A DNA stretch of 22,996 nucleotides from a virus: the IMG/VR virus record IMGVR_UViG_3300034013_000395, positions 1 to 22,996 of that record; one strand, given 5' to 3'. The notes beneath the pieces were generated by a model. It was not told where the DNA came from and ran no database searches. It worked only from the letters and a program-made list of their open reading frames with translations. Position 1 is the stretch's first letter. Each line of letters starts with the position of its first letter. A program made the translations under genes and the position numbers. This document shows, piece after piece, positions 5,528 to 13,177 of the stretch.

Positions 5528-5528
5528 G

Positions 5529-5552
5529 GTCAAATAAAAAACCTTATTTGAC
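5529..5552 (+). terminator. Hairpin after the 5276-5527 gene, possible weak terminator
   Basis: A perfect 9-bp stem GTCAAATAA/TTATTTGAC with a 6-base loop starts two bases after the stop codon. The following bases are A-rich rather than T-rich, so termination would be weak; it may mark the junction between phage backbone and the inserted cassettes. Confidence 0.35.
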
Positions 5553-5660
5553 TAAAAAATAATTATTAAGTACTTTTTTGGTATTTCAAGTTGCTTAAAT
5601 GGTCTTTTTTTTATGTCTGTTGGTATGATGTTTTTTTCGCACTATGTTCGTTACACTTGC

Positions 5661-5753
5661 TGCCAACGGTTTGGGCTATGTGCAGTTGCCCTTGTAGAAA
5701 CTTTAAATATTGCACTAAACCTTGTGGGCAATTGCATATAGCCTGTGTTATGC
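5661..5753 (+). repeat. attC-like recombination site 1 (integron-type)
   Basis: Left core TGCCAAC (5661-5667) and right core G/TTATGC (5747-5753) bracket a long imperfect inverted repeat. Bases 5674-5691 pair with 5726-5743 over 18 positions, 16 Watson-Crick and 2 G-T. The intervening loop is about 34 bases. Total length of 93 bases is within the usual attC range. The next gene starts 19 bases after the right core. The frame at 5591-5782 that crosses this site is not a gene. No integrase or attI is visible in the window. Confidence 0.68.
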
Positions 5754-6090
5754 CCCGTAATTATTATAAATATGGAACGTAAATTAAAATTAATTGAAGT
5801 ACTTAAAGGTGAACGTGAAAGATTTTCTCAACGTGGTCAAAGTACGTTAGAACACGATATTGCAATCGAATATCTTGAAACTGGTAAAACAGATGAAGAC
5901 CCTGACGAATATGAATTGTTGGATGCAGTTATGAATGACTTTGATTGTGTCTGCTCTGATTATGGGGCATAACGTATGGTGCTTTGCGAAGGCGGGGCTT
6001 AGAAGAACAAATGTTGAATTAACCACAAAAGATAATTAGATGCAAAAAGTTGAAAATATAGAAAAAACCCCCGCTTTTGCAAAGCACGTG
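5748..6090 (+). mobile_element. Integron-like gene cassette 1
   Basis: From the G/TT point at 5747/5748 to the next at 6090/6091. The cassette begins with GTTATGCCCCGTAAT (5747-5761), and just before its 3' attC stem carries ATTATGGGGCATAAC (5959-5973), 14 of 15 bases complementary. This is expected because a cassette's own left and right cores join into one attC on circularisation. It contains one small gene whose TAA lies inside the core GCATAAC. Confidence 0.65.
5772..5972 (+). CDS. Cassette-borne small acidic protein, unknown
   Basis: 66 residues from the ATG at 5772 (an upstream in-frame GTG lies inside attC-like site 1 and is rejected). The N-terminal part is basic (MERKLKLIEVLKGERERFSQ), the C-terminal half very acidic (TGKTDEDPDEYELLDAVMND, then FDCVCSDYGA). 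The stop codon overlaps the right core site, typical of integron cassettes. Its base composition is less AT-biased than the phage genes. Function unknown. Confidence 0.7.
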   Translation: MERKLKLIEVLKGERERFSQRGQSTLEHDIAIEYLETGKTDEDPDEYELLDAVMNDFDCVCSDYGA

Positions 6091-6096
6091 TTACAG
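5967..6096 (+). repeat. attC-like recombination site 2 (integron-type)
   Basis: Left core GCATAAC (5967-5973), right core GTTACAG (6090-6096). Between them, GTGCTTTGCGAAGGCGGGG (5979-5997) pairs with bases 6069-6087 over 19 positions, 17 Watson-Crick and 2 G-T. The central section (about 5999-6067) holds TTAACCACAAAAGAT, resembling cassette repeats I recall from Bacteroidota chromosomes. The site is about 130 bases long and contains the apparent ATG of the methyltransferase gene. Confidence 0.7.
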
Positions 6097-6972
6097 GAAG
6101 TACGGTCTATTAACGTGGTTTCTCTTTTCAATGGAATGGGAACTTTAAGACAAGCATTTCACAATTTAGGAATAAAAGTAAATAACTACTATTCAAGTGA
6201 AATTAAAACCTATGCTATTAAATTACAACAGCATCATTTTCCTGATGTGATACAAGTTGGAGATATTAGAAATTGGAGAGAATGGGATATTGATTGGAGT
6301 AGTATTGATTTTATTGGAAGTGGAAGCCCTTGCCAAGATTTAAGTTCATCTGGTAAACGAGGTGGAATAAATGCTGATAATAGTGGGTTGTTTTGGATAT
6401 TTATTGAAATATTAGAACATTGTAAAAAGCTAAACCCAAATGTTAAATTTTTACAAGAAAACGTAGGAAGTGCAAGAAAAAAAGACATTGGGATAATGAG
6501 TAGGGCATTAGGTTTATATCCGTCAAGAATTGATAGTAGTTTAATAACTGCTCAATTACGAGATAGATATTACTGGACAAATATTAGAACAAAGAAAGGT
6601 ATGTTTGATGTTGTTTCGGATATTCCACAACCTAAAGATAAAGGAATAAAACTACAAGACATATTAACTGATGGATTTACAACAAGAGAAAAAAGCAAAA
6701 CTTTATTAGAACGTAGAAGTTTTTGTTATATTGATGAATTTTCAGACAATGCTCAAAGGTTTCTAAAAACAAGAGAAAAGTTTGGAGTTATTGTAATTCA
6801 TTTAGACAATGGATTGATGAGAACAGTAAACAAAATAGAAATGTGCAGGTTACAGGGATTTCCTGATGATTATTGTGATATTTTGAATGAAGATAAAGCA
6901 CAGTCATTATTAGGAGATGGATGGACACTACCAATGATAGAACACATATTGTCGTTTTATGCAGTTCCGTAG
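6040..6972 (+). CDS. C5-cytosine DNA methyltransferase
   Basis: 310 residues. C5-methyltransferase motifs appear in order: motif I VVSLFNGMG (26-34), motif IV GSPCQDLS with catalytic Cys98, motif VI QENVGSA (Glu140), motif VIII AQLRDRYYW (171-179), a short target region (about 190-255), motif IX RLQGFPDD (270-277) and motif X LGDGW (291-295). It transfers methyl from SAM to carbon 5 of cytosine. No restriction partner is adjacent, so it is an orphan enzyme for protection or as the first step of base hypermodification. The ATG at 6040 lies inside the upstream attC-like site; homologues usually begin right at the NVVSLF strand, so the first roughly 24 residues may be a junction-derived extension. 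Confidence 0.93.
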   Translation: MQKVENIEKTPAFAKHVLQEVRSINVVSLFNGMGTLRQAFHNLGIKVNNYYSSEIKTYAIKLQQHHFPDVIQVGDIRNWREWDIDWSSIDFIGSGSPCQDLSSSGKRGGINADNSGLFWIFIEILEHCKKLNPNVKFLQENVGSARKKDIGIMSRALGLYPSRIDSSLITAQLRDRYYWTNIRTKKGMFDVVSDIPQPKDKGIKLQDILTDGFTTREKSKTLLERRSFCYIDEFSDNAQRFLKTREKFGVIVIHLDNGLMRTVNKIEMCRLQGFPDDYCDILNEDKAQSLLGDGWTLPMIEHILSFYAVP

Positions 6973-6988
6973 TATTTCCTGTAACTCG
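6091..6988 (+). mobile_element. Integron-like gene cassette 2 carrying a cytosine methyltransferase
   Basis: It begins at TTACAG (core GTTACAG, 6090-6096) and ends near CTGTAAC (6979-6985). GTTACAGGAAGTAC (6090-6103) is complementary at 13 of 14 positions to GTATTTCCTGTAAC (6972-6985). After the right core only a short stretch (TCGTTTATACACGTAAC) remains instead of a full stem, so the 3' attC appears truncated; the right boundary is therefore approximate. Confidence 0.58.
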
Positions 6989-7019
6989 TTTATACACGTA
7001 ACAATCAGTATAACTAAAT

Positions 7020-7238
7020 ATGATAGTATCAGTTAATTATGTAGTTGTTTGGGAGATACCAAACACACCTTATAAATTTACAAAAGAGGGTATTTGTATC
7101 AATACCCAACGATGCAAAATCTTAAAAAAAGTAAGCAAAAACGGAACTATTGGTTATAATTTTAACTCTAAATTTTATCCACTTAAAAAAGTTAGATTAA
7201 TGCTTAAAAAAATAAAAACAGAAAAATTACCATTCTAA
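7020..7238 (+). CDS. Small basic protein, unknown
   Basis: 72 residues, MIVSVNYVVVWEIPNTPYKF, then TKEGICINTQRCKILKKVSK with NGTIGYNFNSKFYPLKKVR. The pattern of IPNTPY, a central NG-IGY turn and a basic LKKVR end resembles small phage proteins distantly like NUMOD-type DNA-binding modules; this is only a weak impression. It is the first gene after the cassette island. Confidence 0.62.
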   Translation: MIVSVNYVVVWEIPNTPYKFTKEGICINTQRCKILKKVSKNGTIGYNFNSKFYPLKKVRLMLKKIKTEKLPF

Positions 7239-7241
7239 AAT

Positions 7242-10836: not shown

Positions 10837-10940
10837 TAATAATTGAGGTAGTAGCCAATTATTAACAAATCGAATTTTCACACAACGAAAATATATTGAT
10901 TAGCCCCACTAGACTACTACTCTTTTGGGGCTTTTCTTTT
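10837..10940 (+). ncRNA. Structured leader / small RNA A with kissing loops
   Basis: About 100 bases, no ATG. H1: TAATAATTG/CAATTATTA (10837-10845 with 10856-10864, 9 bp), loop AGGTAGTAGC. H2: ATTTTC/GAAAAT (10874-10879 with 10887-10892). H3: terminator. GTAGTAG in the H1 loop (10848-10854) is complementary to CTACTAC in the terminator loop (10914-10920), allowing a 7-bp kissing contact. It lies directly after P3 and before the helicase-methyltransferase gene, so it is either a small RNA or an attenuating leader. The same architecture recurs in RNA B. Confidence 0.66.
10902..10940 (+). terminator. Terminator of RNA A
   Basis: AGCCCCA (10902-10908) pairs with TGGGGCT (10926-10932), 17-base loop, then TTTCTTTTT. 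The start codon of the next gene is 17 bases further on, so read-through or conditional termination would control that gene. Confidence 0.75.
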
Positions 10941-10948
10941 TAAAAATT

Positions 10949-13177
10949 ATGGAATACAACGAATTTTTACAACAAAAAACTAAAAAACATCAACTCACTG
11001 GGTTTGATATTGATGAAAATGAATTAAACAAAAACCTATTTCCATTTCAAAAATTCATAGTAAAACGAGCCTTAAAAGCTGGTAAGTATGCTATTTTTGC
11101 TGATTGTGGATTAGGTAAAACATTAATGCAGTTAACATGGGCTTATGAGGTTGCTTTACATACTGAAAAACCAGTATTGATTTTAGCACCTTTAGCAGTT
11201 AAGGGTCAAACTATTCAAGAAGCTAATAAGTTCGGAGTTGATTTAACTTTTATTGACATTCAAAACTATGAGCAATTAGATAATATCGATTGTAGTATTT
11301 ATGGTGGAGTTGTTTTAGACGAAAGTTCAATCCTTAAAAATTTTACTGGAGTTTATAAAAACAAAATTATTGACAATTTTAAATTAACTCAGTATAAATT
11401 AGCTTGCACAGCTACTCCAAGTCCAAACGATTTAAATGAAATTGGTAATCATTCGGAGTTTTTAGACATATTAGATAGTCAAGATATGAGGTCAAAATGG
11501 TTTGTGCGTGACGAGGGTATGAATAACTATCGTTTAAAAGGACATGCTAAATCTGACTTTTACGGTTGGATTTCAAGTTGGGCTACTATGTTATCAAATC
11601 CTTCAGATTTAGGTTTTGATGGTACTGGCTACGTTTTGCCTCCTTTAAATTTTATTGAAACTGAAATAAAAACACAAACTAGAAGCGACTATCAAATGTT
11701 TAATGATATTTCAGTAAATGCGACTAATTTCAATAAAGAACTAAGACTGACGAAAGTTGAAAGATTAAGCGAAGTTGTTGAAATTGTTAATAATTCAAAA
11801 GAGCCTTTTATAATTTGGATTAAGCAAAATGAAGAGGGCGAATATTTGAAAAAATTAATACCTGACGCAAAAGAAGTAAGAGGTGACGATAAACCTGAAG
11901 TAAAAGAAAAACTACTTTTAGGATTTGCAAAAAATGAATTTAGGGTTTTAATCACAAAAAGCAAAATTGCTCAATTTGGTTTAAATTATCAAAATTGCAA
12001 TAATCAAATTTTTGCCTCACTAGATTTTAGTTTTGAGGGACTTTATCAATCAATTAGACGTTCATATAGATTTGGGCAATTAAACACAGTAAACATTTAT
12101 TTAATAACAACTGATACAATGAAAAACGTAGTAAAATCAATTAAACAAAAAGAAGCTCAATTTATAGAAATGCAAAACGAAATGGGCAAACATATTAACG
12201 GTAAAAAATACGGATTACTAGATAAATATGAATATGCTGAATTTAAAAATGAAAATGTATTTTTAATGAAAGGTGACACTAATATTGAAATTAAAAGAAT
12301 TCCTGACAACTCAGTTGATTTAATTGTTTTTAGCCCTCCTTTTAGTTCTTTATTCACATATTCAAACTATATTCATGATATGGGCAATAATGATAGTCAC
12401 GCTGAATTTTTTAAGCAATATGAGTATTTATTAAAAGAGTTGTATAGAATTTTAAAGCCAGGTCGAATTATGGCATGCCACACAAAAGACTTAGGAGTTT
12501 ATAAAAATTCAAGTGGTTATACTGGCATGTATGATTTTACTGGTGAACATAATGAGTCAGTTTTAAATATGATACCTAACGAGTGGGCAAATGATACAAC
12601 AAGAAAAAACCACAAAGAAACTGAAAATGCAGGATTTAAATTTCATTCAAAGATAACTATTTGGTGCGATCCAGTACTTGAAATGCAGAGAACTAAAACA
12701 CAAAGATTGCTTTATAAAACAGTTACTTCAGATAGTACTAAAACTGGAATTGGAATGGCTGAATATATTACTATTTTTAAAAAGTGGGATGGTTCGGACG
12801 AGGAAAATTGGGAGCCAGTAACTAATATTACAAAACAAAATTTTCCTTTAGATACTTGGCAAAGGTGGGCTTCACCAGTTTGGATGGACATAAAGCGAAC
12901 TGATGTTTTAAATGGACATGAAGGGACTGCAATGGGTGACGAAAAACATATAGCACCACTACAACTTGAAGTAATACATAGAATTGTAAACCTTTGGAGC
13001 AATGAGGGCGAAACTGTATTTACACCTTTTTTAGGAATTGGTAGTGAAGCTTATGTAGCAGTAAAAAATAATCGTAAGGCAATCGGATGCGAGCTAAAAG
13101 ATAGTTATTTTGAAGTTGCTGTAAAGAATATTAAAAAAGCAGAAATGGCAAAAACTCAAATTGATTTGTTTGAATAA
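10949..13177 (+). CDS. Superfamily 2 helicase fused to an N4/N6 DNA methyltransferase
   Basis: 742 residues from the ATG at 10949 (an upstream in-frame TTG lies in the terminator stem and is rejected). N-terminal helicase: Walker A DCGLGKT (about 52-58), Walker B-like LDES, motif III CTATPSPND, and C-terminal helicase motifs around QFGLNYQ and SIRRSYRFGQ. C-terminal methyltransferase: motif IV SPPF (from 462) precedes the SAM site PFLGIG (693-698), the beta-class order for N4-cytosine or N6-adenine enzymes. An ATP-driven remodeller joined to a methyltransferase occurs in several phage lineages. It may modify phage DNA during replication. No nuclease motif is seen. Confidence 0.88.
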   Translation: MEYNEFLQQKTKKHQLTGFDIDENELNKNLFPFQKFIVKRALKAGKYAIFADCGLGKTLMQLTWAYEVALHTEKPVLILAPLAVKGQTIQEANKFGVDLTFIDIQNYEQLDNIDCSIYGGVVLDESSILKNFTGVYKNKIIDNFKLTQYKLACTATPSPNDLNEIGNHSEFLDILDSQDMRSKWFVRDEGMNNYRLKGHAKSDFYGWISSWATMLSNPSDLGFDGTGYVLPPLNFIETEIKTQTRSDYQMFNDISVNATNFNKELRLTKVERLSEVVEIVNNSKEPFIIWIKQNEEGEYLKKLIPDAKEVRGDDKPEVKEKLLLGFAKNEFRVLITKSKIAQFGLNYQNCNNQIFASLDFSFEGLYQSIRRSYRFGQLNTVNIYLITTDTMKNVVKSIKQKEAQFIEMQNEMGKHINGKKYGLLDKYEYAEFKNENVFLMKGDTNIEIKRIPDNSVDLIVFSPPFSSLFTYSNYIHDMGNNDSHAEFFKQYEYLLKELYRILKPGRIMACHTKDLGVYKNSSGYTGMYDFTGEHNESVLNMIPNEWANDTTRKNHKETENAGFKFHSKITIWCDPVLEMQRTKTQRLLYKTVTSDSTKTGIGMAEYITIFKKWDGSDEENWEPVTNITKQNFPLDTWQRWASPVWMDIKRTDVLNGHEGTAMGDEKHIAPLQLEVIHRIVNLWSNEGETVFTPFLGIGSEAYVAVKNNRKAIGCELKDSYFEVAVKNIKKAEMAKTQIDLFE

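Follow-up and report, generated by a model that had tools for sequence, protein, structure and literature searches.

The virus record analyzed here, 22,996 bases long and referred to throughout as the window, is AT-rich and carries the tailed-phage genes for terminase, NinG, and an Erf-like protein. At positions 10925 to 13174 it also encodes a 750-aa protein in which a helicase-like region is fused to an N6/N4 DNA methylase. A block at 5528 to 7241 contains two stem-loops, two cassette genes, and one small open reading frame (ORF), all on the plus strand. It opens with a noncoding lead (5528 to 5664, no strand assigned) that is missing at the homologous place in the related phage L184. An attC-like stem of the short-loop type follows (stem 1, AACG...TGTT, 5665 to 5749), an AAC-stem-GTT hairpin that leads into the left core, or R', of cassette 1 (GTTATGCCCCGTAAT, 5747 to 5761). 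The cassette 1 gene (5772 to 5972) encodes a 66-aa protein without a Pfam or PHROG match, and its right core, or R'' (ATTATGGGGCATAAC, 5959 to 5973), is complementary to the left one. Stem 2 (5971 to 6092) holds in its loop the ATG (6040) of the next gene, a C5-cytosine DNA methyltransferase (PF00145, 6040 to 6972) whose first ~20 codons run through the stem-loop and whose cores are GTTACAGGAAGTAC (R', 6090 to 6103) and GTATTTCCTGTAAC (R'', 6972 to 6985). Each gene is flanked by a complementary core pair, GTT... and ...AAC, and the two cassettes, each a stem plus a gene (5665 to 5973 and 5971 to 6985), abut an attI-like landing site (AACTCGTTTATACACG, 6983 to 6998). Behind it is the small ORF (7020 to 7238, 72 aa), which accompanies the landing site in related phages.

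The original prediction, made from the letters of the window, placed integron-type cassettes without an integrase at 5661 to 6988, and much of its description is borne out. The two consecutive units with complementary cores are present (5747 to 5761 with 5959 to 5973, and 6090 to 6103 with 6972 to 6985), as are the attC-like hairpins at 5665 to 5749 and 5971 to 6092, with G.T deviations on the plus strand. The stop codon of the first gene (TAA, 5970 to 5972) lies inside its core site as described, and a search of the record for PF00589 found no tyrosine recombinase (0 of 1). The island is real, with an extent that needs revision: it reaches at least 6998, the end of the attI-like site, and probably 7238. 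In 40 dinucleotide shuffles of the window no stem scores above 39, whereas the two real stems reach 45 and 47. Taken by themselves, the core pairs (30 and 26) fall within chance window-wide (shuffle mean 25.5, maximum 32); it is their position exactly at the stem edges, together with the population statistics of chromosomal cores given below, that makes them significant.

Both cassettes recur elsewhere in other company. Stem 2 and the methyltransferase are common to the window, L006, and L007, with different genes upstream, and L089, on the same contig as L196, has stem 1 and gene 1 as in the window, followed by another stem and gene. In further phage contigs stem 2 stands nearly unchanged ahead of different genes. 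The possibility that the stems are part of the preceding gene is ruled out by L196, L006, and L007 compared with the window. Several viral contigs hold tandem arrays in which each unit's left core is complementary to its own right core. Of the 12 loci picked out by an initial pattern scan of viral contigs, only L089 shows these stems by the stem finder.

The methyltransferase core unit alone also recurs, at 97% identity in viral contig L002, the match spanning window positions 6089 to 6986 from GTT to AAC. Such breaks would suit a transposon-like element in which the cores are terminal inverted repeats around each gene and the mover is an unrecognized transposase or phage recombinase. We find this explanation hardly credible, as the units form tandem arrays with common stems that end at a fixed site, no transposase was recognized among 21 phage cassette proteins scanned, and a cassette found at the fixed site in one isolate lies elsewhere in another. 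At L002:1437-2377 and L003:1803-2651 the methyltransferase core unit of the window is accompanied by wholly different stems, suggesting that stems can be exchanged too, separately from genes; a single-base difference immediately behind the core keeps the frame in these two copies.

The landing site itself is stable. Homologues of the small ORF (window 7020) are found at 11 viral loci, and upstream of these homologues the landing site is conserved and the abutting cassettes vary. L196 matches the window in site, stem 1, and gene 1 and has a different last cassette, and L200 to L205 have one common site behind five different cassette ends. The 72-aa family, which has no Pfam or PHROG match, is found just behind the phage landing site in the window (7020-7238), in L197 (5001-5216), and in L198 to L205, and it may be part of the platform. 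In L184, the backbone genes that flank the block in the window (5276 and 7242) overlap, so that the place is empty there; as the proposed comparison with related phages anticipated, the block is not ancestral backbone. L184 has its own three-stem array with landing site and small ORF at another place, between two genes that are direct neighbors in the window.

To describe the stems as a family, we used a covariance model, R1, built from 29 elements, mostly from phages and including both window stems; stem 1, itself in the training set, matches at an E value of 6.7e-9. In the alignment of the 29 elements TAACG...TGTTA is almost invariant, AACG and TGTT being the exactly invariant columns, and compensatory change is seen in 15 of 17 stem pairs. 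With at most 11 to 13 candidates scored per genome, the model finds matches in 136 of 296 sampled genomes of Bacteroidota (the phylum of L115, a Cytophagales MAG), in 8 of 249 of Bacillota (the phylum of a Virgibacillus), where they are weak, at most 59.6 bits, and in none of 249 of Pseudomonadota (the phylum of a gammaproteobacterium). One Bacillota genome has two weak matches separated by 1.1 kb (G428:C1:425766-426927), which could be a related system. Scanning genome contigs for the exact pattern yielded 13 loci, several of them outside Bacteroidota and without stems by the stem finder. Five of these genomes were searched with the model, and one gave a match, of 5.5e-7, on a short contig of a Pacearchaeota MAG (G304:C53:364-501); this is probably due to a mis-binned contig, with transfer a possibility.

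On chromosomes, 106 elements in 20 stretches are arranged as same-strand arrays. Their cells are paired in 94.1% of cases versus 62.3% when shuffled, with 483 double changes versus 150. Once five stems without an exact AAC or GTT are dropped, the cores of consecutive elements pair at 8.43 of 14 positions (81 pairs), compared to 4.44 in shuffles (standard deviation 0.19, maximum 5.04 of 1000). At core position 10, counted from 0, the complement of R'' is A in 101 of 101 elements, and R' has G in 78, C in 18, T in 5, and never A. A G.U is conserved at one stem pair in 101 of the 106 elements. In attC, extra-helical bases mark one strand, and by analogy the fixed wobbles and bulges of the chromosomal stems may do the same. 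Computed DNA energies favor the stem strand modestly (58 versus 40 for the whole element, p=0.085; 71 versus 28 for the arms only). In the window, the plus strand as single-stranded DNA folds somewhat better than its complement, making the coding strand, rather than the bottom strand first proposed, the favored one.

Whether these are ordinary integron cassettes, with attC sites recognized by an IntI integrase (a classical CALIN), is a natural question given the similar layout. attC clusters have been reported in phages, including a Polaribacter phage, and IntI1 was active on 5 of 6 sites (PMC9892861, as far as the portions drawn on here describe them); moreover, IntI is found above the curated cut-off in 84 of 296 Bacteroidota genomes. 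We nevertheless regard this explanation as highly unlikely. IntI is if anything depleted in genomes with arrays (28/136 versus 56/160, odds ratio 0.48, uncorrected for kinship of the genomes), and none of 34 IntI places typed lies within 15 kb of a listed stem. The R boxes have the form GTTA/G-NNN-G, with ~14-nt complementarity and the invariant G/A asymmetry, and the classical RYYYAAC/GTTRRRY box is present in only 5 of 101. The 249 Pseudomonadota genomes have no stem-model match, IntI occurs in 24 of 120 Pseudomonadota sampled, and the model has no match in Polaribacter phage P12002L, which was rejected as a member of the present family. The IntI count in Bacteroidota is in itself far above what the published complete-genome survey suggests.

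A different tyrosine recombinase gene is found with the chromosomal arrays, at their 3' end and on the opposite strand. Among 82 recombinase places typed and the stems listed, 25 recombinases have a listed stem within 15 kb; 24 of these sit at the 3' array end, and 21 are also antisense. A profile search (E<=1e-60) finds the array-end recombinase in 94 of 296 Bacteroidota genomes, comprising 82 of the 136 with stems and 12 of the 160 without (p=1.3e-23, uncorrected for kinship of the genomes). The other 54 stem-bearing genomes, with no profile match at this threshold, perhaps reflect drafts, decay, or a narrow profile. The enzyme is XerA/IntI-like with an N-terminal extension. All six array-end recombinases examined score below the IntI cut-off of TIGR02249 (204 to 231 bits versus 265), and the IntI insert is lacking, 42 IntI-only alignment columns being absent. 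Five of the six pass the cut-off of NF040815, the L119 protein falling below it (209 bits versus 220). In a tree from which IntI locus L209 was left out (no protein by motif), a clade with 98/99 support unites 15 array-end recombinases and is separate from IntI (100/99) and Xer. The full set of 22 array-side recombinases is held together weakly (54/78), and some of the seven outside the core clade may be unrelated neighbors. By two of the criteria tested, the IntI insert and GTTRRRY, the window system lies outside the classical integron family, and in this respect the integron-type label of the original prediction has to be narrowed.

The 3' end of the recombinase gene faces a putative attI. 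A site like AACTYGTTTATATRTG can be read by eye ~65 to 110 nt from the recombinase stop codon in 14 of 20 loci, and a matching right core ends 66 to 102 nt from that codon in 8 of 15 loci with a last stem, one of the 8 being a second-best match. A matrix was built from 16 of the 20 recombinase loci, L230, L232, L234, and L119 being left out as having no such site; the sites of L235 and L236 fit it weakly. Applied to the window, this chromosome-derived attI matrix gives its top match at 6983, the landing site, with 19.7 bits; the next match has 13.4, and 30 mononucleotide shuffles reach 16.9 at most. Landing sites of the L200 type fit weakly and are not the best matches of their loci, and the landing site of Flavobacterium phages is outside the two best matches listed for L195. 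Plasmids carry the recombinase as well. On NZ_CP041688.1 of Chryseobacterium sp. SNU WT5 it is accompanied by five stems and, as read by eye, a site of attI form ~100 nt behind the recombinase, and on a Chryseobacterium oryzae plasmid (L258) it is present with no stem-model match.

Phage and chromosomal cassettes differ in gene orientation. In 51 of 56 chromosomal cassettes the longest ORF runs from the attI side toward the stem, as is usual in integrons, with 3 of 56 inverted, versus 35 of 35 phage cassette genes inverted relative to that layout (Fisher p=1.2e-21 on 35:0 versus 3:51). The 56 are consecutive pairs left after length and core-match filters, and after exclusion of pairs split over two fetched loci, from the count that gave 81 for core pairing; the phage cassettes have a core match of at least 9 and are not a random set, since their loci were picked by methyltransferase and stem searches. 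The polarity first proposed for the window, with insertion at G/TT and genes in the usual orientation, does not apply to these phages, whose genes point the opposite way with respect to the sites. DNA methyltransferases account for 10 of 20 phage cassette proteins scanned, besides the window's own.

The start codon is inside the stem-loop in 18 of 35 phage cassettes, so proteins of different phages share a leader such as MQKVENIDETPAFAKHVL. The notion that every cassette gene starts within the stem-loop was refuted, an in-frame loop ATG being found in 3 of 27 chromosomal cases. Such start codons, along with G.T pairs that are equally good in RNA, would fit cis-acting RNA leaders or terminators at gene borders, the modules being shuffled by homologous recombination with no dedicated recombinase; stems such as stem 2 are near-identical between phages, and homologous exchange through them is possible. 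We give this account little credence. Chromosomal cassettes read the other strand (51/56), so the stems there are not such leaders; the two cores on either side of a gene pair with each other; attI and the recombinase form a fixed module; and an Rfam scan returned no match. The borders of a cassette that has moved, described next, have only ATAAC in common.

Evidence of movement comes from Flavobacterium phage isolates (Lillamyvirus and Muminvirus), which have 73 stem-model matches in 11 loci. Among 13 isolates compared, the sequence behind ...TAAC|TACAATATTACATG is common to them, and many differ ahead of it. Isolates lillamy9-2 and 9-3 have 0 mismatches over 8,001 nt apart from one relocated 439-bp cassette, which one isolate has in the array interior and the other next to the landing site, with borders ambiguous only within ATAAC. 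The same cassette is array-interior in lillamy9-1 and at the landing site in 9-7. Beyond the 8-kb tract, 164 of 28,869 positions distinguish lillamy9-2 from 9-3, which are therefore not clones. The moving unit in these phages is a stem with the gene that follows it, cut within (A)TAAC, rather than a gene with its following stem. No PF00589 tyrosine recombinase is found in six such phage genomes, pointing to an enzyme of the host. These arrays are exactly those carried by the Baltic Flavobacterium phages whose plating on LMO6 has been tied to methyltransferase content (PMC7077304), in a paper whose text, in the portions drawn on here, contains neither the word "integron" nor "integrase."

The structure of the elements, their distribution, the association with a recombinase, the platform, and the relocation are all read directly from sequence. 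Taken together, they make it most likely that the region in the window is a phage-borne outpost, lacking an integrase, of a Bacteroidota cassette system that resembles integrons. The original reading of cassettes in a phage without an integrase is upheld and extended by the arrays, the landing site, the clean absence in a relative, and the movement between isolates. The region works like an integron, its cassettes very probably having been moved by a recombinase of the array-end kind, and the host's enzyme probably acts in trans on those of the phage. We envision that this XerA/IntI-like recombinase, without the IntI insert, would act on single-stranded, folded cassette sites and also on the landing site in the phage, cutting cassettes out and placing them beside that site. 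Phages would retain cassettes with the gene inverted relative to the site, allowing transcription with the phage operon, and the stem-loop would supply the 5' leader, and often the start codon, of the cassette gene. The cargo, largely DNA methyltransferases, probably shields phage DNA from host restriction.

A wider proposal, which we consider likely though with less assurance than the identity of the region, is that a second kind of integron exists across the whole phylum Bacteroidota, using a non-IntI recombinase, an attI, and a family of sites of its own. Lytic phages would exploit it by means of landing sites and a pool of inverted cassettes, confined to phages, whose start codon is in the recombination site, and shuffling by the host enzyme would let phages change their anti-restriction genes and host range. 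The cassette system would let phages swap small genes such as DNA methyltransferases, the mover apparently being a nonclassical host recombinase, and lytic phages would gain a mechanism for acquiring methyltransferases. A survey of complete genomes with IntegronFinder 2.0 reports one complete Bacteroidetes integron, in Salinibacter ruber M1, and calls the absence of integrons from some clades intriguing (PMC9024848, in the portions drawn on here), and an older survey selected intI by its additional domain (PMC2426708, likewise). If a non-IntI cassette system is present in nearly half of sampled Bacteroidota, the integron gap would be largely one of detection, and the IntI insert would not be the sole way to use folded cassette sites.

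No published description of the present cassette system was found in open-licence PMC literature, and several known systems come close to it. The NCBI family NF040815 (recomb_XerA_Arch, "site-specific tyrosine recombinase/integron integrase"), which takes in five of the six array-end recombinases, is defined by sequence only, and no description of a cassette system was found for it; as its name already puts XerA-like enzymes and integron integrases together, curators may be aware of part of the link. The integron-like subgroup of simple tyrosine recombinases (Smyshlyaev et al. 2021, PMC8138268) has insertion-less members, which are not tied to cassette arrays in the portions of that work drawn on here. 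Classical integrons (IntI, attI, attC) resemble the present system in their arrays of single-gene cassettes, in imperfect palindromes with GTT/AAC cores, which in the present system would likewise fold with a preference for one strand, in an attI beside a tyrosine recombinase, and in a cassette seen moving to or from attI. In both, a tandem cassette consists of one gene and one site in the same orientation, with the phage genes inverted. The present system differs in a recombinase without the IntI insert, with an N-terminal extension and with its 3' end facing attI; in its R boxes, with their form, complementarity, and asymmetry; and in a landing site that in phages stands without a recombinase. 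Also close are the phage CALINs (Qi et al. 2023, PMC9892861), integrase-less clusters in lytic phages that likewise carry methyltransferases. From the portions of that study drawn on here, those clusters were found by classical attC models, whereas the present model misses P12002L, and the phages described here carry, in addition, an attI-like landing site and inverted cassettes.
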